The notes beneath the pieces were generated by a model that saw nothing but the letters and a program-made list of their open reading frames with translations, was not told where the DNA came from and ran no database searches. Positions 54,640 through 64,000 of a stretch of 64,000 bases of DNA are shown here, one piece after another. The stretch comes from Nitrospira sp. (lineage in GTDB: Bacteria > Nitrospirota > Nitrospiria > Nitrospirales > Nitrospiraceae), in NCBI GenBank assembly GCA_036984305.1, contig BQWY01000001.1, positions 4,051,501 through 4,115,500 of the forward strand. Direction: 5' to 3'. Position 1 is the first letter of the stretch; each line of letters starts with the position of its first letter. The position numbers and the translations under genes were made by a program.

Positions 54640-55221
54640 ATGAGAGCGCGCGCCATCCAAGCCTTTGACGAGAGCGCAGAGGTCAAGCGCCGTTTTGTCC
54701 GTGAGTACGCGGATCGCATCGCCGCTGTGGCGCAGCTCATCGGCAAATCCCTCCGAACAGGGAATAAAGTCCTTTTTTTTGGCAATGGCGGCAGTGCGAC
54801 GGATGCCTCGCATTTGGCGGCCGAGTTCGTGGGGCGCTATCATCGTGATCGAATGCCTCTCCCGGCGATCGCGCTGGGGGCCGACGCCGCCGCGCTCACT
54901 TGTATCGCCAACGACTACGGCTACGAGGATGTCTTCGCCCGACAGGTTCGCGCGCACGGACGGAAAGGCGATATCGCCATCGCGATCAGCACCAGCGGCA
55001 ATTCCCCAAACGTCTTGAATGGCGTCGCGGCAGCTCGATCGATAGGGCTCATCACCATCGGATGGACCGGTCATGAAGGCGGAAAGTTGGCCGAACAGGT
55101 GGATTATAGTTTTGTCGTGCCTTCTCGCGTCACCGCCCGTATTCAGGAGAGCCACATCACACTCGGCCACGTGCTCTGCGAGTTGATCGAGGACGACCTC
55201 TTTGCCAAAGACTCGAACTAA
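54640..55221 (+). CDS. gmhA: phosphoheptose isomerase
   Basis: A 193-residue SIS-domain isomerase that converts sedoheptulose 7-phosphate to glycero-manno-heptose 7-phosphate, the first step of the heptose branch of LPS synthesis. The core reads FFGNGGSATDASHLAAEFVG, ADAAALTCIANDYGYEDVFA and ISTSGNSPNVLNG. The C-terminal ESHITLGHVLCELIEDDLF holds the catalytic Glu and His. Full length. It overlaps the next gene by 20 bases; rfaE2 lies further along the window. Confidence 0.94.
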   Translation: MRARAIQAFDESAEVKRRFVREYADRIAAVAQLIGKSLRTGNKVLFFGNGGSATDASHLAAEFVGRYHRDRMPLPAIALGADAAALTCIANDYGYEDVFARQVRAHGRKGDIAIAISTSGNSPNVLNGVAAARSIGLITIGWTGHEGGKLAEQVDYSFVVPSRVTARIQESHITLGHVLCELIEDDLFAKDSN

Positions 55222-56203
55222 GTCACGCCCGCCGCGCGTCGCACCTACGCAACCCATCGATGTGACCCGACTCAAAACGTACCCACTGCGTCGCCGGCAT
55301 AGCAAGGTCCGTGTATCTGACTTTGCCACTGCATGGAAGCCCGGATCCAGTTTGGGAAGATTCCTGAACAGTCTGCCAGACATTTTGGCCGTCAAGACGC
55401 TTCGGGCCGTCGCCGGGACCATTGTTCAAGCTCATCGACGCCGACGGCCTGTCGTACTCGGGATGGGTGCCCATCCGATCAAGGTCGGCTTGAGTCCCAT
55501 CGTGATTGATTTGATGGAACGCGGCATCCTAACGGCAATCGCCATGAACGGGGCTGGCATCATTCATGACTTTGAGATCGCCTTACTGGGCCAGACTTCA
55601 GAAGACGTAGAGGCGGAGATCGATTCCGGTCGTTTTGGGATGGCAGAAGAGACCGGCCAAATCTTGAACGGCGCAATCGTTGACGGCGGACGTAGCGGCC
55701 TTGGGATCGGAGAGGCCGTCGGACAGTATCTTCACCGCCACCGTCGCTCCTTCCCTCACACCCATATGAGCGTTCTTGCGACCGGGGTCCGGTTGGGGAT
55801 TCCCGTCACCGTACATGTCGCGATGGGAACAGACATCATTCACATGCATCCGTCCGCCGATGGAGGGGCCATCGGCGCCGGATCGCTGGTCGACTTCAGA
55901 AAACTGGCGGCGGTGGTGTCACGGATGGAAGGCGGAGTGTATCTGAATTTGGGATCGGCGGTCATTCTTCCCGAGGTGTTCCTTAAAACCGTCGCGCTGG
56001 GTCGCAATCTCGGTCACGCGCTTCGCTCCATCACGACCGTGAACATGGACTTTCTCGCGCACTATCGACCGCTCACCAACGTGGTCAAGCGACCGACGCA
56101 AAAGGGCGGAAAGGGTTACTCACTCATCGGTCATCATGAACTCATGTTTCCATTGCTGGCTGCGGCCGTTCGTGAACAACTCGCTGACAGCAGGACCGCA
56201 TGA
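55202..56203 (+). CDS. conserved protein linked to gmhA (deoxyhypusine synthase-like fold, tentative)
   Basis: A 333-residue protein that is strongly conserved in style: VVLGMGAHPIKVGLSPIVID, AMNGAGIIHDFEIALLGQTS, ETGQILNGAIVDGG, VTVHVAMGTDIIHMHPSADG and YLNLGSAVILPEVFLKTVAL. The layout suggests an NAD-dependent Rossmann-like enzyme of the deoxyhypusine synthase-like type, but I cannot assign a reaction. It starts with TTG 55202, 20 bases inside gmhA; GTG 55262 is another option. The strong coupling suggests a linked role with heptose or LPS metabolism. Confidence 0.6.
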   Translation: MPKTRTKSRPPRVAPTQPIDVTRLKTYPLRRRHSKVRVSDFATAWKPGSSLGRFLNSLPDILAVKTLRAVAGTIVQAHRRRRPVVLGMGAHPIKVGLSPIVIDLMERGILTAIAMNGAGIIHDFEIALLGQTSEDVEAEIDSGRFGMAEETGQILNGAIVDGGRSGLGIGEAVGQYLHRHRRSFPHTHMSVLATGVRLGIPVTVHVAMGTDIIHMHPSADGGAIGAGSLVDFRKLAAVVSRMEGGVYLNLGSAVILPEVFLKTVALGRNLGHALRSITTVNMDFLAHYRPLTNVVKRPTQKGGKGYSLIGHHELMFPLLAAAVREQLADSRTA

Positions 56204-56251: not shown

Positions 56252-57937
56252 TTATGGCCGCTGCGTTACAAAGACGTCGGCCACTCCATTCGTATCGTCG
56301 TCCACCAAATTGGTTGCGTAGGATGTGAAGGAGATAAAGCGACCGTTGGCACTGATCGAGGGAGTGTTGCTGAGGCCTCCAGCCGCCTCCGCGCCTGTCC
56401 CGCTCACCGATGCCCGCTTGATCGCATTAATCCCCGTGCCTTGCAAGTCGACTACGAAAATGTCGGATTGACCATTGGTATCGCCGCCGCCATCCAGCAG
56501 CGTACTGGCTTCGGACTCGAACACCACATAGCGCCCATCGCTCGTCAGCACCGGAATGCGGCTGTCACCATTGCCCTCAATCCCGCTTTCGGAAATCGAC
56601 ACTCGACGCATGGTCGGAGCCGGCGATTGCCAATCTACGACGAAGATGTCCGCCACGCCGTTGGTGTCATTAGCTACAAGGTTGTCCGCCACCGACCAGA
56701 ATGCGATCATTTTTCCGTCCCCACTGATCGATGGCGTGAAGCTGTGCCAGTTGCCGGGATTCCCGCCCTGATCTTTTGAAACTAATTGCGTGATACCGGT
56801 AAGCCGGTCGTACACAAAAATGTCAGACGCGCCGTTGATGTCGTTGCCGGGACCGAGTAGATTCGTCGCCACCGACTCATACACGACATAACGGCCATCC
56901 GCGCTCATGCCGGGATTTCCGCTGCCTCCATCGGCTTCACTTCCGCCCGGTCCGACCGACACACGTTCCGTAAACTTAGAGACTCGATTGTGCACGAAGA
57001 TGTCCGCCATTCCGTTGGTGTCACCAGATACGAGGTTGGTAAAGGTCGAGCCAAAGGCAACGAGGTTCCCGTCGTACGTCAGCGCAGGATCAAAGCTGGA
57101 ACACGTCAACCCACCTGCCGGCGGAACCGCGCAGGTGCCTTCTGTACCGGAGAGCGAAGTAACCGACACGCGGACGGTCTCACCCTTCAATCGATCATAG
57201 ATAAAGATGTCACCTCCGCCGCCGCCCGGAGCGCTGGCATTGGTGTCTCCGAGCACCAAGTTCGTCGCAAACGAGTGGAAGGCGATTACATTGCCATCCT
57301 GGCTGATGGTTCCAGCGACGGTATCATTGTCACCTTCTATACCGCCGTTGCCGACGGACGTGCGGACGACATCTCCGGTGAGACGATCCTGAAGGAAGAA
57401 ATCCCGCTTACCATTGGTATCGCCCGTGACCAGATTGCTAGCAGAGGATTGAAATACGATATACCGCCCATCTCCGCTCAGAGCGGACTCTCCTCCGTAG
57501 GTGGGATACACTCCACTATCCCCATTGCCCTTCGTACCTGAGGTTCCTGTTGAAACAACGCTTGTCTTGGGACGGACGGTGAGGTGGAAGGTGCGTGTGT
57601 CCTGCCCACCCGCGCTGCTGGCGATTACCGTCAACACCCACGTTCCGTGCTGTGAAGGGGTTCCCTCAATCGATCCTGATTCGAGGAGCGACAATCCGGG
57701 AGCGAGAGTTCCTCCAGCTATCGCCCACGTGACGTCGGTGGATCCTGTAGCACTCATTGAAGCGTTGTAGGGTAATGATTCATCGCCCATAGGAAGCGCG
57801 GCGGTGCTGATTGTCGGGGCCGTAGTCGTGGCGGTGCCACCACCTCCCCCGCTGCTATTGCAAGCCGACAGTAAGACCAGCCCAACCAGCGCAACCATTG
57901 CGTTGCGGCAGCCTCGCCCTACTCGTGTGGTGCTCAT
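56252..57937 (-). CDS. propeller-repeat lipoprotein (paralogue 1)
   Basis: A 561-residue lipoprotein. The lipobox LLSAC (Cys near 26) is followed by a short Gly/Thr-rich spacer, an Ig-like putative domain (GTLAPGLSLLESGSIEGTPS, the He_PIG-type pattern) and seven repeats built on S-x-x-G-x-x-V-x-F-x-S-x-A-x-N-L-V-x-x-D-T-N-G-x-x-D-I-F-V. Each repeat carries a DTNG loop, and the repeats resemble TolB/PD40 blades, so a seven-bladed beta-propeller is likely. DxNG-type loops may bind Ca2+. It is a neighbour of a 561-residue paralogue on the same strand. Confidence 0.85.
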   Translation of the reverse strand: MSTTRVGRGCRNAMVALVGLVLLSACNSSGGGGGTATTTAPTISTAALPMGDESLPYNASMSATGSTDVTWAIAGGTLAPGLSLLESGSIEGTPSQHGTWVLTVIASSAGGQDTRTFHLTVRPKTSVVSTGTSGTKGNGDSGVYPTYGGESALSGDGRYIVFQSSASNLVTGDTNGKRDFFLQDRLTGDVVRTSVGNGGIEGDNDTVAGTISQDGNVIAFHSFATNLVLGDTNASAPGGGGGDIFIYDRLKGETVRVSVTSLSGTEGTCAVPPAGGLTCSSFDPALTYDGNLVAFGSTFTNLVSGDTNGMADIFVHNRVSKFTERVSVGPGGSEADGGSGNPGMSADGRYVVYESVATNLLGPGNDINGASDIFVYDRLTGITQLVSKDQGGNPGNWHSFTPSISGDGKMIAFWSVADNLVANDTNGVADIFVVDWQSPAPTMRRVSISESGIEGNGDSRIPVLTSDGRYVVFESEASTLLDGGGDTNGQSDIFVVDLQGTGINAIKRASVSGTGAEAAGGLSNTPSISANGRFISFTSYATNLVDDDTNGVADVFVTQRP

Positions 57938-58260: not shown

Positions 58261-59946
58261 TTATTGCCGACGCGTTACGAACGCGTCGCGAACTCCGTTC
58301 GAATCCCCGTCTACGAGTGTCGTGGCGTCGGAGTAGTAGGCTATGTAAGAACCGTCTTCAGAAATGGCCGGATGAATGCTGTCCCCATTACCTTGCTGTA
58401 TGCCGCCCCCACCCAAGAAATTGAGTGAGAGACGTTGGATGCTCTCTCCAAGCTTCACCAGATAAATATCCTGCGCGGAATTCGTGTCGGGATTCGCCGG
58501 GTCCAGATTGGCGGCCTCGGATTCAAACGCCACGAATCGACCATCCCGGCTGATCGCGGGGAAGTCGCTATTACCATCACCGCCCTCAAATAGCGGAGGA
58601 CCATTCACGGAGATCCGCGTTACGGTGGGAATTGCCGCACTCAGATTGGTCGCCACGAAAATGTGCTGAGACGCGCCTCCTGAGCCCCAGTCGGTTGCTT
58701 CTGACATGAAGGCTACGACTGTTCCATCGCCATTGATACTGGCATTGAAGCTCGGTCCGGTTGCCTCACCACCACCCGGAGCCACGGAGACCTTTTTGAT
58801 GGTTGGCGGAGATGTTTTTAGGTCGGCGAGGAAGATGTCATTGACTCCCCCACCGTCGAAGCCGTTTGACCCAAAGGCAAGGACATCGCCATCGGCACTC
58901 AGTGCGGGGCTTCCATTTCCTCCGCCCACGCCTGCTGATGCCGTAACTCGAGTCAAAATGGGGGCACCGCCTCTGAGATTCAATACATAAATATCGGACT
59001 CGTTGTCGGTATCGGTGAGCTCCAGTTTGGCCAGCGATCCAAACGCAATGACTTTCCCATCTGCGCTGATAGAGGGATCGAAGCTGTTGCAGTTCTCTCC
59101 GTCGGGGGGAAGGACTGGACAAATGCCCTCTGCCTTCGAAACTCCCTGCGAAAGTCGAATCGTGGTCTTGTTGGTCCGGTCTCGCAAGAAGACGTCGCGC
59201 GAATTGTTCGTATCGGCCGAGCCATTGGTGGCCGCATCGACCAGGTTGGAGGCCCATGAATCGAATGCCACAAAATTGCCGTCGTCGCTCACGACTGCCA
59301 CGACGCTGTCATCGTCGCCGGGTAGCCCACCGGTACCGACCGAAATCAGCTCGGTCTTGCCGGTTTGGCGATCGTGAAGATAGATCTGAGACTTTCCATT
59401 GCTGGATTGTCCAGGGACGAGATTGGACGCCGATGAGTCGAACACCACGAAGCGGCCCGTGCTGTTGATGCCGGGATCAAAGCTTCGCGTGTGACCGTTA
59501 TGTTGCGCATCGCCACTGGCTCCCCCAACCGCCTGGTCCAAGGTATCGCTTTGCACCGAAACCCGATGCGTCCTCCCTCGCACTACAAATGTGAGGTTAT
59601 TCTTGGTATCTGTTCCGCCAGGGCCGGTCACTGTAAGTGCCAACACCTTTACGGTCACTTCAGTGGGCGTACCGGATATCACGCCGTCTGACGCCAGGGT
59701 CAAGCCCTGTGGTAACGTGCCACCGGCTAACGTCCAGGTGAAGGGTCCAGTGCCGTTTGCAGTAAGCTGAGTGTTATAAGGAAGGTTAACGTCTGCGGGA
59801 GCAAGGCCTGCGATCGTAATGGTTGGGGCGACCGGGGGGGGAGGGGGGGCACCATTATCCCCGCCACCACCACATGCCGTCAGAAGGCCCAGCATGACGA
59901 CCATAACGAGGCCGCGAGATACCCGCCCACTATGATTGTTTCTCAT
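58261..59946 (-). CDS. propeller-repeat lipoprotein (paralogue 2)
   Basis: A 561-residue lipoprotein similar in plan and exact length to paralogue 1. The lipobox LLTAC is near residue 24, then a Gly/Pro-rich spacer, an Ig-like domain (TLPQGLTLASDGVISGTPTE) and about seven repeats with SASNLVPGQSSNGKSQIYLH, WASNLVDAATNG, LELTDTDNESDIYVLNL, GGGVNDIFLADLK, then further blades ending DATTLVDGDSNGVRDAFV. Probably another beta-propeller on the outer surface. A run of G (minus-strand C) codes for a Pro-rich section after the lipobox. Confidence 0.85.
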   Translation of the reverse strand: MRNNHSGRVSRGLVMVVMLGLLTACGGGGDNGAPPPPPVAPTITIAGLAPADVNLPYNTQLTANGTGPFTWTLAGGTLPQGLTLASDGVISGTPTEVTVKVLALTVTGPGGTDTKNNLTFVVRGRTHRVSVQSDTLDQAVGGASGDAQHNGHTRSFDPGINSTGRFVVFDSSASNLVPGQSSNGKSQIYLHDRQTGKTELISVGTGGLPGDDDSVVAVVSDDGNFVAFDSWASNLVDAATNGSADTNNSRDVFLRDRTNKTTIRLSQGVSKAEGICPVLPPDGENCNSFDPSISADGKVIAFGSLAKLELTDTDNESDIYVLNLRGGAPILTRVTASAGVGGGNGSPALSADGDVLAFGSNGFDGGGVNDIFLADLKTSPPTIKKVSVAPGGGEATGPSFNASINGDGTVVAFMSEATDWGSGGASQHIFVATNLSAAIPTVTRISVNGPPLFEGGDGNSDFPAISRDGRFVAFESEAANLDPANPDTNSAQDIYLVKLGESIQRLSLNFLGGGGIQQGNGDSIHPAISEDGSYIAYYSDATTLVDGDSNGVRDAFVTRRQ

Positions 59947-60109: not shown

Positions 60110-60844
60110 ATGAGTGATCCCTTCAGAGGAGGGGACCAGGGGACGACGATCCGAAGGGGAAACTCAGACGCCCATAGATCCATGTTTTTCAAATACATAT
60201 ATGCACCCATCCATACATCTGGGGTCTTGCTCCCGGATGCGTCCGTTCTGTTTCAGGCATGGACCCTACTGAATAGGCAGTTCTTTGAAGGTAAGCTGGC
60301 GCCGCTTGCCATACACTGGAGCACGCGTCTTACGGCGTCCCTAGGGGTTTTTGTTTGTAGCCGAAATGCCATTATGATTGCAACCGGCAAGGGCTTGAGC
60401 AGTCCTTCTCGATGTATTCGCCTATCACAGCCACTCTTTCACTCGTTGTGCCACGACCCTACAAAGGCCGCGCGCGAACTGCGGGCGACCCTCGCACACG
60501 AAATGATTCATCAGTGGCAATTCGACCGTTTACATCGTAGGCCGGATCATGGCCGAACATTTCGCACTATGATGGAGGCTATGAATCGAGAAGGGCTCCA
60601 CATATCGATCTACCACGCCTGTACGGAGGCGGTAGCGATGCACACACGATATTGTTGGGCCTGCATCCAGTGTGGTCAACGATACGAGCGGCAACGCCGG
60701 ACGATCAATCCTCGACGACACCGCTGCGGCAGATGTCGTGGAAGCCTGAAACTTATGTGCGACGAAGACCGGACGAACCGGTCATCCATCAACTCTTCCG
60801 ATGTCTTGCCAGCGCAACTCCCTCTACCTCTCCTATCTCGATAA
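60110..60844 (+). CDS. SprT-like zinc metalloprotease with C-terminal clamp-binding-like motif
   Basis: A 244-residue protein with a SprT-like domain. HEMIHQWQFD holds the HExxH zinc site (residues 130-134) and DHGRTF (145-150) the third His. A zinc ribbon follows: CWACIQCG and CGRCRG (Cys 182, 185, 188, 206, 209). The last residues are PAQLPLPLLSR; QLPLPL (236-241) closely resembles the bacterial beta-clamp-binding hexapeptide (QLSLPL in E. coli Hda). Eukaryotic SPRTN has the analogous order of SprT domain and PCNA-binding peptide. Start uncertain (60110 or 60182). Function: DNA-linked protease, inference. Confidence 0.8.
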   Translation: MSDPFRGGDQGTTIRRGNSDAHRSMFFKYIYAPIHTSGVLLPDASVLFQAWTLLNRQFFEGKLAPLAIHWSTRLTASLGVFVCSRNAIMIATGKGLSSPSRCIRLSQPLFHSLCHDPTKAARELRATLAHEMIHQWQFDRLHRRPDHGRTFRTMMEAMNREGLHISIYHACTEAVAMHTRYCWACIQCGQRYERQRRTINPRRHRCGRCRGSLKLMCDEDRTNRSSINSSDVLPAQLPLPLLSR

Positions 60845-60949
60845 GGTCGTAGTTGCGCGCCGCCATGCTGGAACTGTCATTGATTCGCGAGCATCCCCCG
60901 TCTATGATTCCCCATCTACTCCTGCACCGGGTTTAGGCACGGATCACCG

Positions 60950-61429
60950 ATGTCAAAGGTATTACCGAGAACCACTCTGTTGAATGTTCTGAGAAGCGCA
61001 AGAGAGGAAAGAAAGCGCATCGTGTTCACGAATGGGTGCTTCGATTTACTTCATGTCGGTCATGTCCGTTATCTGCAAGCAGCACGCGCCTTGGGGGATC
61101 TTCTGGTCGTAGGCCTGAATACCGATGCATCTATTCGCCGCCTCTCCAAAGGCGCCGATCGACCAATCGTACCGGAACATCAGCGAAGCGAAGTGCTGGC
61201 CGCCCTCGGTTGTGTCGACTATGTCACTCTGTTCGATGAACCCGACCCTCTCGAGTTGATCACCGCGCTCAAGCCCGATGTTCTGGTCAAAGGAGGAGAC
61301 TGGAAGCCTGATCAGATAGTCGGAAAGGATCTTATCCAGGCACGCGGAGGCCAGGTACTGGCTCTACCGCTGGTGCCCGATATCTCCACGAGTACGCTCA
61401 TCGACCGTATTCGATCACGTTCCTCCTGA
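60950..61429 (+). CDS. rfaE2: D-glycero-beta-D-manno-heptose 1-phosphate adenylyltransferase
   Basis: A 159-residue nucleotidyltransferase, equal to the C-terminal domain of HldE made as a separate gene. The N-terminal motif FTNGCFDLLHVGHVRYLQAA has the HxGH nucleotide-binding site, and LVVGLNTDASIRRLSKGADR follows, with IVPEHQRSEVLAALGCVDYV and VLVKGGDWKPDQIVG. It activates heptose 1-phosphate with ATP for LPS core synthesis, downstream of gmhA. It lies 4 bases from mfd. Confidence 0.94.
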   Translation: MSKVLPRTTLLNVLRSAREERKRIVFTNGCFDLLHVGHVRYLQAARALGDLLVVGLNTDASIRRLSKGADRPIVPEHQRSEVLAALGCVDYVTLFDEPDPLELITALKPDVLVKGGDWKPDQIVGKDLIQARGGQVLALPLVPDISTSTLIDRIRSRSS

Positions 61430-61433
61430 CCCA

Positions 61434-64000
61434 GTGTCGCACATCCATCCCTCCACCTACTGGCGTACGCTTTTCCAACCGATACGGGACGCGCTCCTGA
61501 ACGCGGGGGCCAGGGCCTGTGTGTCTGGGCTTATCGGATCCGCCGCATCCTTCGTGGTGACGATTCTCGCGCGAGATCTGTCGACGCTGTCGTCGCCGCG
61601 TTCCCTTCTGCTGGTGACAGGCACAGACGAGGCCGCCGAGGTACTTGAGGGTGACCTGCGTTTTTTTCATTCGTTACTCGGACATTCGGACGAGGTTGTG
61701 CAGTTCTTTCCCGCATGGGAAATGATCCCCTATGAGCCAACTGCTCCGCATGTCGACCTCGTAGCCCAGCGGATGAGGGCGCTGCATCACATGACCGAAA
61801 GGAAGCCGTGCATCCTCGTCACATCTGTGCGCGCCCTGGTACAGAAAATCATGCCACGGGCGCTCTTTCGCGAGGCATCCATACATCTTCGCGTGAACCA
61901 CGACCTGAGCCGCGAACAACTTCTGTCCGGTCTTCTGCGTCTGGGCTATCGACAAGCCTCCGTGGTTGAAATCCCAGGTGAATTCAGCGTTCGAGGTGGC
62001 ATTGTCGATATATACTCGACAGCCTATCTGTCCCCGTTGCGAATTGAATTCCTCGGTGACACGGTGGATGCCATCCGCACATTCGATCCAGCCACGCAAA
62101 CATCGTCGCAGCGCCGGCAGGATGCGTGGGTGCTTCCCGCGCGGGAGGCCATTCGCCCAGTTGGGCTCCCGGACGAACTATCCGCGCTGCCGGTCGACGC
62201 CGAATGGCAAGCTCCGTCCTGGTACGCGTCAATGGACTCGCTTCTCGACTACTTCGCCTCTCCACCAGTCTTTGTCCTTGATCAGCCTGCCATGCTGGCG
62301 GCCGAGGCAACAGCGTTCTGGACACGGGTGGAGGACGAATACCTGCGTCACCTCGACCATTCAGGAGATCATGTCTATCCAACGCCTGACCAGCACTTCG
62401 CATTATGGGAAGCCGTGTTGGCTCATGCGCACGCAAATGCTTGGCTTGCCCTGGAATCGGTCACTTCGCCCGAGGCAACGTGGACCCCCGTCATAGCATT
62501 TTCGGCCCAGACGCCTGAAGCGCTGGGTCTGAACTTACGAGGGACACCATTTACCGAAACCCTGTCCCTATTGGATCGATTGCGGTACGCGGGACCCGTC
62601 CTGATCGTAGCGCGGGCTCGCGCTCAGGTGGATCGACTCTTAGCACTTTTTGCCGAGCACGACCTCCCTGCCGCTCCATGGACGCCGGCGGCATGGTCCT
62701 TAGAGACTTCGGATCGGCACCCCTTTTACGTGATTCATGGGGACATGTCCTCTGGGTTCATTTGCCGGGACATGCCCTTTTGCGTCGTGACCGAGGAGGA
62801 AGTGTTTGCCAAAGGTACGCGCCACAAGCCGACGACCAAAAGCAAGGCGGCCTCGTTTCTCGCATCATTGGATGAGCTCGATCTCAACGATTACGTCGTG
62901 CACGTGCAATACGGGATTGGGAGATATCGCGGACTCAAGCGGCTCTCCGTCCAGGACAATGAAAACGATTATCTGATCCTCGAATATGCTCGCGGGGACA
63001 TGCTCTACGTCCCCTTGGATCGACTCAATCAAGTGCAGCGCTACGTCGGAGCCGAGGGCAGTCCCCCGCGTCTGGACAGACTGGGTGGAACCGGGTGGGA
63101 GAAAACGAAGGCCCGGGTCAAAAAGGATATCGAGGAGATGGCACACGAGTTGGTGGAGCTGTATGCCAGCCGGGAAGTCATTCAACGAGGAGCCTATAGC
63201 GGCGATCGCACGCTCCTCCATGAATTCGAGGCGGCGTTCGACTATGAGGAAACGCTGGACCAGCTGCGCGCGGTTGAAGATATTCAGGGGGATATGGCTT
63301 CCACGAAACCGATGGATCGACTCGTCTGCGGGGACGTAGGCTACGGGAAGACCGAGGTCGCTATGCGTGCGGCCTTTCTCGCCATCGAGCATAATCGGCA
63401 AGTGGCCGTGCTCGTTCCCACGACGCTATTGGCCCACCAGCATTACGACAATTTTTCTCAACGGTTCGCGCCATTCCCCACTCGGGTCGGACTCTTGTCA
63501 CGCTTTCAAAGCCCGAAGGAAACCAAGGCCGTCATACAAGACCTGGCGGCTGGAACCCTGGACATTGTAATCGGCACCCACCGGCTCCTCCAAAAGGACG
63601 TCACATTTAAGAATCTCGGGCTCGTGATCGTTGACGAGGAACAATGGTTCGGCGTGCGCCACAAAGAACGCCTCAAGCAGCTTCGGACTCAAGTCGACGT
63701 GCTGACGCTCACCGCCACGCCAATCCCACGCACGCTGCAACTCGCCATGGCCGGAGTTCGCGATCTCTCAGTCATTGAAACACCGCCGCCGGGCCGGCTG
63801 GCCATTCGCACGCAGGTCCTGCGAAGCAATGACACGGTTGTCCGCGACGCCATCGTCCGGGAACTCGACCGAGGCGGCCAAGTCTATTTTGTCCACAACC
63901 GGGTGGAGACGCTCCAGCGGATGGGGTCTTGGCTCCAGCAACTGATCCCTCAGGCCCGTGTCGTCATGGCTCACGGGCAGATGGACGGACGCCTGCTGGA
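61434..64000 (+). CDS. mfd: transcription-repair coupling factor, 3' end outside the window
   Basis: At least 855 codons, starting GTG 61434 and open to the right edge. The N-terminal UvrB-like module includes WEMIPYEPTAPHVDLVAQRM and VEIPGEFSVRGGIVDIYST. The RNA-polymerase-binding segment is NDYVVHVQYGIGRYRGLKRL, with LDELDL just before. The helicase core has KPMDRLVCGDVGYGKTEVAM (Walker A), VPTTLLAHQHYDNF, IVIGTHRLLQKDV, VDEEQWFGVRHKE (motif II) and TLTATPIPRTLQLAMAGVRD. Motif II shows W where R is usual (DEEQRFGV). The translation is open with no frameshift. It displaces stalled RNA polymerase and recruits UvrA. Confidence 0.95.
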   Translation, partial: MSHIHPSTYWRTLFQPIRDALLNAGARACVSGLIGSAASFVVTILARDLSTLSSPRSLLLVTGTDEAAEVLEGDLRFFHSLLGHSDEVVQFFPAWEMIPYEPTAPHVDLVAQRMRALHHMTERKPCILVTSVRALVQKIMPRALFREASIHLRVNHDLSREQLLSGLLRLGYRQASVVEIPGEFSVRGGIVDIYSTAYLSPLRIEFLGDTVDAIRTFDPATQTSSQRRQDAWVLPAREAIRPVGLPDELSALPVDAEWQAPSWYASMDSLLDYFASPPVFVLDQPAMLAAEATAFWTRVEDEYLRHLDHSGDHVYPTPDQHFALWEAVLAHAHANAWLALESVTSPEATWTPVIAFSAQTPEALGLNLRGTPFTETLSLLDRLRYAGPVLIVARARAQVDRLLALFAEHDLPAAPWTPAAWSLETSDRHPFYVIHGDMSSGFICRDMPFCVVTEEEVFAKGTRHKPTTKSKAASFLASLDELDLNDYVVHVQYGIGRYRGLKRLSVQDNENDYLILEYARGDMLYVPLDRLNQVQRYVGAEGSPPRLDRLGGTGWEKTKARVKKDIEEMAHELVELYASREVIQRGAYSGDRTLLHEFEAAFDYEETLDQLRAVEDIQGDMASTKPMDRLVCGDVGYGKTEVAMRAAFLAIEHNRQVAVLVPTTLLAHQHYDNFSQRFAPFPTRVGLLSRFQSPKETKAVIQDLAAGTLDIVIGTHRLLQKDVTFKNLGLVIVDEEQWFGVRHKERLKQLRTQVDVLTLTATPIPRTLQLAMAGVRDLSVIETPPPGRLAIRTQVLRSNDTVVRDAIVRELDRGGQVYFVHNRVETLQRMGSWLQQLIPQARVVMAHGQMDGRLL

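Follow-up and report, generated by a model that had tools for sequence, protein, structure and literature searches.

Introduction

In the genome of a Nitrospira species, a gene for a SprT-like metalloprotease ends in a short peptide that resembles those by which bacterial proteins attach to the beta sliding clamp, and this locus raises the question whether a bacterial protease is tethered to the clamp and, if so, what it may do there. Eukaryotes offer a model in SPRTN, which binds PCNA via a PIP box and cleaves crosslinked proteins independently of their sequence (PMC9240642), and in vertebrates this proteolysis promotes translesion synthesis (TLS) past the crosslink or the residual peptide adduct (PMC6375733). 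For bacterial DNA-protein crosslinks, nuclease-based routes have been described, which lead through excision repair and recombination (PMC7782752, PMC9240642). Peptides that bind the bacterial clamp follow the consensus QL[S/D]LF or QxxLF, of which positions 1, 4 and 5 weigh most in E. coli (PMC12309361, PMC3836487, PMC4478557). The Hda peptide QLSLPL binds tightly, with a KD of 0.38 uM when put into the epsilon subunit of Pol III (PMC12309361).

SPRTN as such is known, and so are SprT domains and clamp motifs. A search of freely accessible literature retrieved no report joining Nitrospira SprT, the clamp and crosslink repair, and none that places a SPRTN-like protease of bacteria at the sliding clamp or describes one that has a clamp peptide under selection and is paired with dinB. 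In the present study the window, i.e. the whole analyzed stretch of 64,000 nucleotides, was used as a starting point to follow this protein and its tail through the order Nitrospirales.

Materials and Methods

Orthologues were searched for in the order Nitrospirales, in which the protein was present in 198 of 236 genomes; 80 named loci were retrieved, the majority labelled Nitrospira or Nitrospirae/Nitrospirota. The strict tail pattern was defined as Q[LMF]x[LMF]x?[LF], and background C-termini for the motif test were taken from ORFs flanking sprT in Nitrospira loci. Values of dN/dS were computed over 25 independent sister pairs of orthologues.

Results

The protein and its protease domain

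Coordinates and sequence of the gene as given in the preliminary description were correct, and its account of a HExxH SprT-like protein ending in QLPLPL was confirmed by the ORF translation, with PAQLPLPLLSR as C terminus (tail peptide SSDVLPAQLPLPLLSR; N. defluvii AGPQLGFPFTTV), and by a Pfam match to the SprT-like domain PF10263 over residues 53-169 (E 9e-16, 58.1 bits vs. a cut-off of 25.6). The SprT zinc ribbon PF17283 scored 23.7 bits over residues 180-214, with a cut-off of 28.1. An alignment of 47 Nitrospirales proteins displayed the HEMIHQW block, H147, the four Cys of the zinc ribbon and many structural residues as invariant, and every one of these residues is retained in the window protein. 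Judged by sequence, the latter is intact as a SprT metalloprotease, with HEMIH, the third His and the Cys of a probable Cys4 zinc ribbon (Table 1). The N-terminal 40 residues were found in the window protein alone, and because orthologues begin near its residue 40-46, translation may in fact begin at ATG 60182 or TTG 60227 instead of ATG 60110.

Table 1. Features of the sprT locus, with positions counted from the first nucleotide of the window.
Feature	Position	Strand	Remarks
sprT	60110..60844	+	SPRTN-like metalloprotease; 244 aa with ATG 60110 as start
Protease domain, residues 44-176	60239..60637	+	Human SPRTN (6mdx/6mdw) nearest among solved structures
HEMIH zinc/catalytic motif, residues 130-134	60497..60511	+	Alignment
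Invariant third-ligand His, residue 147	60548-60550	+	Alignment
Cys4 zinc ribbon C185, C188, C206, C209; Arg-rich between pairs	60662..60736	+	Pfam, alignment
Variable linker, residues 214-235	60749..60814	+	Low predicted confidence; dN/dS 0.54 in orthologue sister pairs
Predicted beta-clamp-binding hexapeptide QLPLPL, residues 236-241, then LSR-stop	60815..60832	+	Tail-motif conservation
Site of dinB (Pol IV) in most Nitrospira relatives; gene absent here	60845..60949	.	
rfaE2 (heptose nucleotidyltransferase domain)	60950..61429	+	Conserved neighbour
mfd (transcription-repair coupling factor)	61434..63998	+	Conserved neighbour, runs past window end
gmhA-like SIS protein	54640..55221	+	Conserved upstream neighbour
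Protein of deoxyhypusine-synthase-like look	55202..56203	+	Conserved upstream neighbour; no Pfam match in window copy
Two 561-aa lipoprotein-like proteins	56252-57937, 58261-59946	-	PD40/beta-propeller repeats in first; second looks like paralogue

When the profile of the Nitrospirales family was compared with solved structures in the PDB, human SPRTN came first (E 4.5e-25), the next, unrelated match reaching 0.001, and the profile scored 91.5 bits against the human SPRTN domain vs. 22.9 bits against E. coli SprT. SPRTN was likewise the best fold match of the AlphaFold model (Z 12.9; 111 residues superposed at 2.3 A, with 34% identity), with archaeal selecase-type minigluzincins behind it (Z 9.9); Foldseek also listed Hsp90 and MCM, which were set aside as noise. 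Because profile scores and fold matches both favour SPRTN, the protease domain is, on sequence and predicted structure, to be regarded as SPRTN-like rather than E. coli-like. The parallel to eukaryotic SPRTN drawn in the preliminary description is hence supported and goes deeper than was proposed, as it includes the protease domain itself. The same model has a pLDDT mostly above 90 in the core and of about 60 in the tail, with no secondary structure at the motif, which places the predicted clamp motif in an accessible region.

With SPRTN, its nearest solved relative by sequence and fold, the window protein shares the SprT catalytic domain, including HExxH and the third His, and probably a zinc-binding module after the protease domain, followed in a flexible region by a sliding-clamp peptide, here a predicted one; a link to translesion synthesis may also be common to both, which in Nitrospira is suggested by gene order. 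However, the PIP box of human SPRTN is directed to PCNA and lies internally (aa 325-332 of 489), whereas the Nitrospira peptide is C-terminal and of the bacterial beta-clamp type. The window protein is also much shorter, with about 30-35 residues after the zinc ribbon, and since UBZ and VCP-binding motifs are absent it was not classed as SPRTN proper.

Conservation of the tail motif

Conservation of the tail in orthologues, which had been named beforehand as a check of the clamp idea, turned out strongly positive. Orthologue tails vary in length and sequence, and nearly all of them present a Q-L-x-L-x-F type peptide at or near the end: a motif of the Q-L-x-L-x-F/L type was found in the tail of 96/107 distinct Nitrospirales orthologues and was absent from a minority of 11/107, including a four-member clade of family f4, genus g37. 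Truncated tails (L009, L015, L106, L107) are among the losses, and about eight changes of the motif were counted on the tree of 107 distinct cores, which was built from few columns and has many unresolved forks. The strict pattern matched 116/130 orthologue tails, where shuffled tails led to an expectation of 2.2. After clustering of the cores at 85% it matched 39/44 (shuffles: mean 0.7, maximum 3 in 500), the loose pattern failing in 3/44 clusters, and after clustering at 65% it matched 12/13. The remaining long ORFs of these Nitrospira loci supplied 391 C-termini, not one of which matched, and together with the shuffles they rule out a chance match.

The position profile of the clustered motifs reads Q - L/M/F - x - L/F - x - F/L, with Q in 41/41, Gln being demanded by the pattern. 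Variants comprise QLGFPF, QFSLPF, QLTLEF, QLTLQL, QLSFTF, QLELDF, QLAFDF and QLSLF, and the distance from motif to stop ranges from 0 to 42 residues. Two species of family f4 (L122, L127) display a PSPQPSPRG-like repeat in place of the zinc ribbon and retain a terminal QLAFQF.

Selection on the tail

Over the sister pairs dN/dS amounted to 0.06 at the anchors of the motif (positions 1, 2, 4 and 6), 0.15 in the SprT core and 0.54 in the linker, while motif positions 3 and 5 gave 0.30 and residues past the motif 0.94; synonymous change was ordinary. To judge by these ratios, purifying selection acts more strongly on the anchor residues than on the enzyme core, and the linker drifts. The pattern looks like that of a peptide that docks from the end of a flexible tether.

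The tail as a clamp-binding peptide

The hexapeptide QLPLPL of the window protein differs from QLSLPL of Hda solely at the variable position 3, so that the single-residue difference noted earlier was borne out. Elsewhere in this genome QLPLF occurs in ImuB and QTNIF in DnaE1, and DnaN retains TDGHRL and VVMP, which correspond to segments of the clamp pocket in E. coli. As the tail matches both the clamp consensus and the Hda peptide, as ImuB and DnaE1 of this genome bear motifs of their own, and as the pocket segments of DnaN are retained, it is very likely that the SprT tail binds the beta sliding clamp. Clients of the clamp such as Hda, ImuB, UmuC, PolB and PolC possess, as does the SprT tail, a short peptide of Q-L-x-L plus F/L, but the word protease is absent from a review of clamp clients (PMC9690074).

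Gene neighbourhood and dinB

Among relatives with enough flank, the commonest order, all on one strand, was SPFH - gmhA - deoxyhypusine-synthase-like - sprT - dinB - rfaE2 - mfd, and in the 70 retrieved loci whose flank downstream of sprT measured 2.3 kb or more, dinB was present in 49, rfaE2 in 58 and mfd in 45. The neighbours rfaE2 and mfd had initially been considered perhaps coincidental; this did not hold, for sprT-dinB-rfaE2-mfd is a conserved order, from which the window species lacks dinB. Since the gap between sprT and the downstream dinB commonly measures 6-20 bp, an operon of the two is suggested. The identity of DinB is backed by the Pfam domains IMS, IMS_C and IMS_HHH. The locus L043:2929-3960, counterpart of the window gene at 55202-56203, yielded only a sub-threshold ArgZ-like Pfam match.

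The window species has retained the order and lost dinB; its only Y-family match is ImuB, located at 780 kb beside DnaE2, and the pair of PD40 lipoprotein-like genes is inserted between sprT and its conserved upstream neighbours. The SprT of this species has a branch of unusual length (1.53), and for this reason its own function may have drifted. Outside family f1, and in the greater part of genus g15, sprT does not adjoin dinB, so that the link to the polymerase is a lineage-specific one. In much of g15 (L069, L079, L082) the place of dinB between sprT and rfaE2 is taken by an antisense open frame of about 1050-1130 aa, which codes for a sensor kinase. At L078 a single frame of 844 aa joins the zinc ribbon of sprT to the C-terminal half of mfd, which reflects either a deletion of dinB-rfaE2 or an assembly fault of the MAG.

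DinB proteins encoded next to sprT retain the LF of the Y-family clamp motif, with Gln and the first hydrophobic residue missing (PAPEPLF, PATESLF and PAPPGLF vs. QLxLF); this degenerate xxxLF site was seen at L043:4635-5825 and other loci. A clamp motif was absent anywhere in 59/61 of these proteins, the other two presenting only an unrelated QLILL far upstream. DnaE3 proteins of the xxxLF type have been described (PMC12309361), and the xxxLF peptide of DinB may bind the clamp weakly.

Discussion

Taken together, we favour, with a probability of roughly two in three, the reading that the protein is a SPRTN-like zinc metalloprotease which is recruited by the beta clamp and trims DNA-protein crosslinks, or other proteins at the fork, so that bypass synthesis can proceed. 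The tail peptide would dock in the standard clamp pocket, which is conserved in the DnaN of this genome, and would thereby bring SprT to forks, to gaps or to patches under repair; there the zinc ribbon, rich in Arg, could aid contact with DNA. Its substrates, presumably crosslinked or tightly bound proteins, would be degraded to peptide stubs, and a translesion polymerase could then copy past the stub, DinB in most relatives and, in the window species, the ImuB/DnaE2 set with its clamp motif. The logic would be the same as that of SPRTN, PCNA and TLS in vertebrates. If this is true, bacteria have also evolved the combination of protease, clamp and bypass, perhaps independently of its PCNA counterpart, and a protease joins the clients of the bacterial clamp.

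Because the adjacent DinB has lost Gln and the first hydrophobic residue of its own clamp motif, it could even be imagined that SprT and DinB form a two-gene module for crosslink bypass, in which SprT carries the clamp tether for both, trims the crosslinked protein and passes the site to Pol IV; we regard this extension as rather improbable.

The main rival, which we consider unlikely, is that the clamp-tethered protease cleaves a regulated fork protein, i.e. a polymerase, a clamp client or a repair factor such as DinB or ImuB, and so controls access to the clamp. The evidence of tail and clamp applies to it equally, the tight pairing of sprT and dinB is what would be expected of a regulator, and a SprT that diverged fast in a species devoid of dinB would fit as well. 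However, the domain is SPRTN-like, and SPRTN cuts crosslinked proteins irrespective of sequence; moreover, SprT was kept without an adjacent dinB in g15, in f4 and in the window species.

There is even less to be said for the tail being a short linear motif for a partner other than the clamp, be it SSB-tip-like or for docking to membrane or chaperone. Although the last residues of some tails, ...DF or ...LPF, superficially recall the C-tip of SSB, position 1 is Gln in all motif-bearing clusters (the pattern demands it, but only the three clusters mentioned fail the loose one), the hydrophobic residues are spaced as in clamp motifs, and ImuB of the same genome bears QLPLF. In addition, the motif often lies off the very C-terminus, whereas an SSB-like tip needs the terminal position, and an SSB-tip-like peptide was disfavoured on account of these offsets and the conserved Gln.

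That the tail is a relict or artefact of shared ancestry or of nucleotide constraint, e.g. by the ribosome-binding region of dinB, has next to no probability: the orthologues do share ancestry, and in many genomes dinB follows shortly after the tail, but the contrast in dN/dS between anchors and adjacent linker with ordinary synonymous change, and the retention of the motif at differing distances from the stop and without dinB (g15, f4, window), rule out a constraint at nucleotide level or from a dinB ribosome-binding site.

A general occurrence of the tail among SprT-like proteins was likewise rejected. E. coli SprT (YggI/SprT, NF003421; SprT family NF003339) resembles the window protein in that a zinc ribbon comes after the Pfam SprT-like domain, but terminates at this ribbon and is tailless; against NF003421 the window protein reached 16.6 bits, with an equivalog cut-off of 175, and it stayed far under the equivalog cut-off of NF003339 too. 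Those SprT-like proteins that turned up in other classes of the phylum belong to different subfamilies and have no such tail. The phage search gave no SprT-like matches and the plasmid search only weak haloarchaeal ones. Viral relatives on IMG/VR contigs (L166-L203), tailless and devoid of a zinc ribbon, are short SprT-like proteins of about 110-170 aa, which carry AHEMIHQ and end soon after the protease domain.
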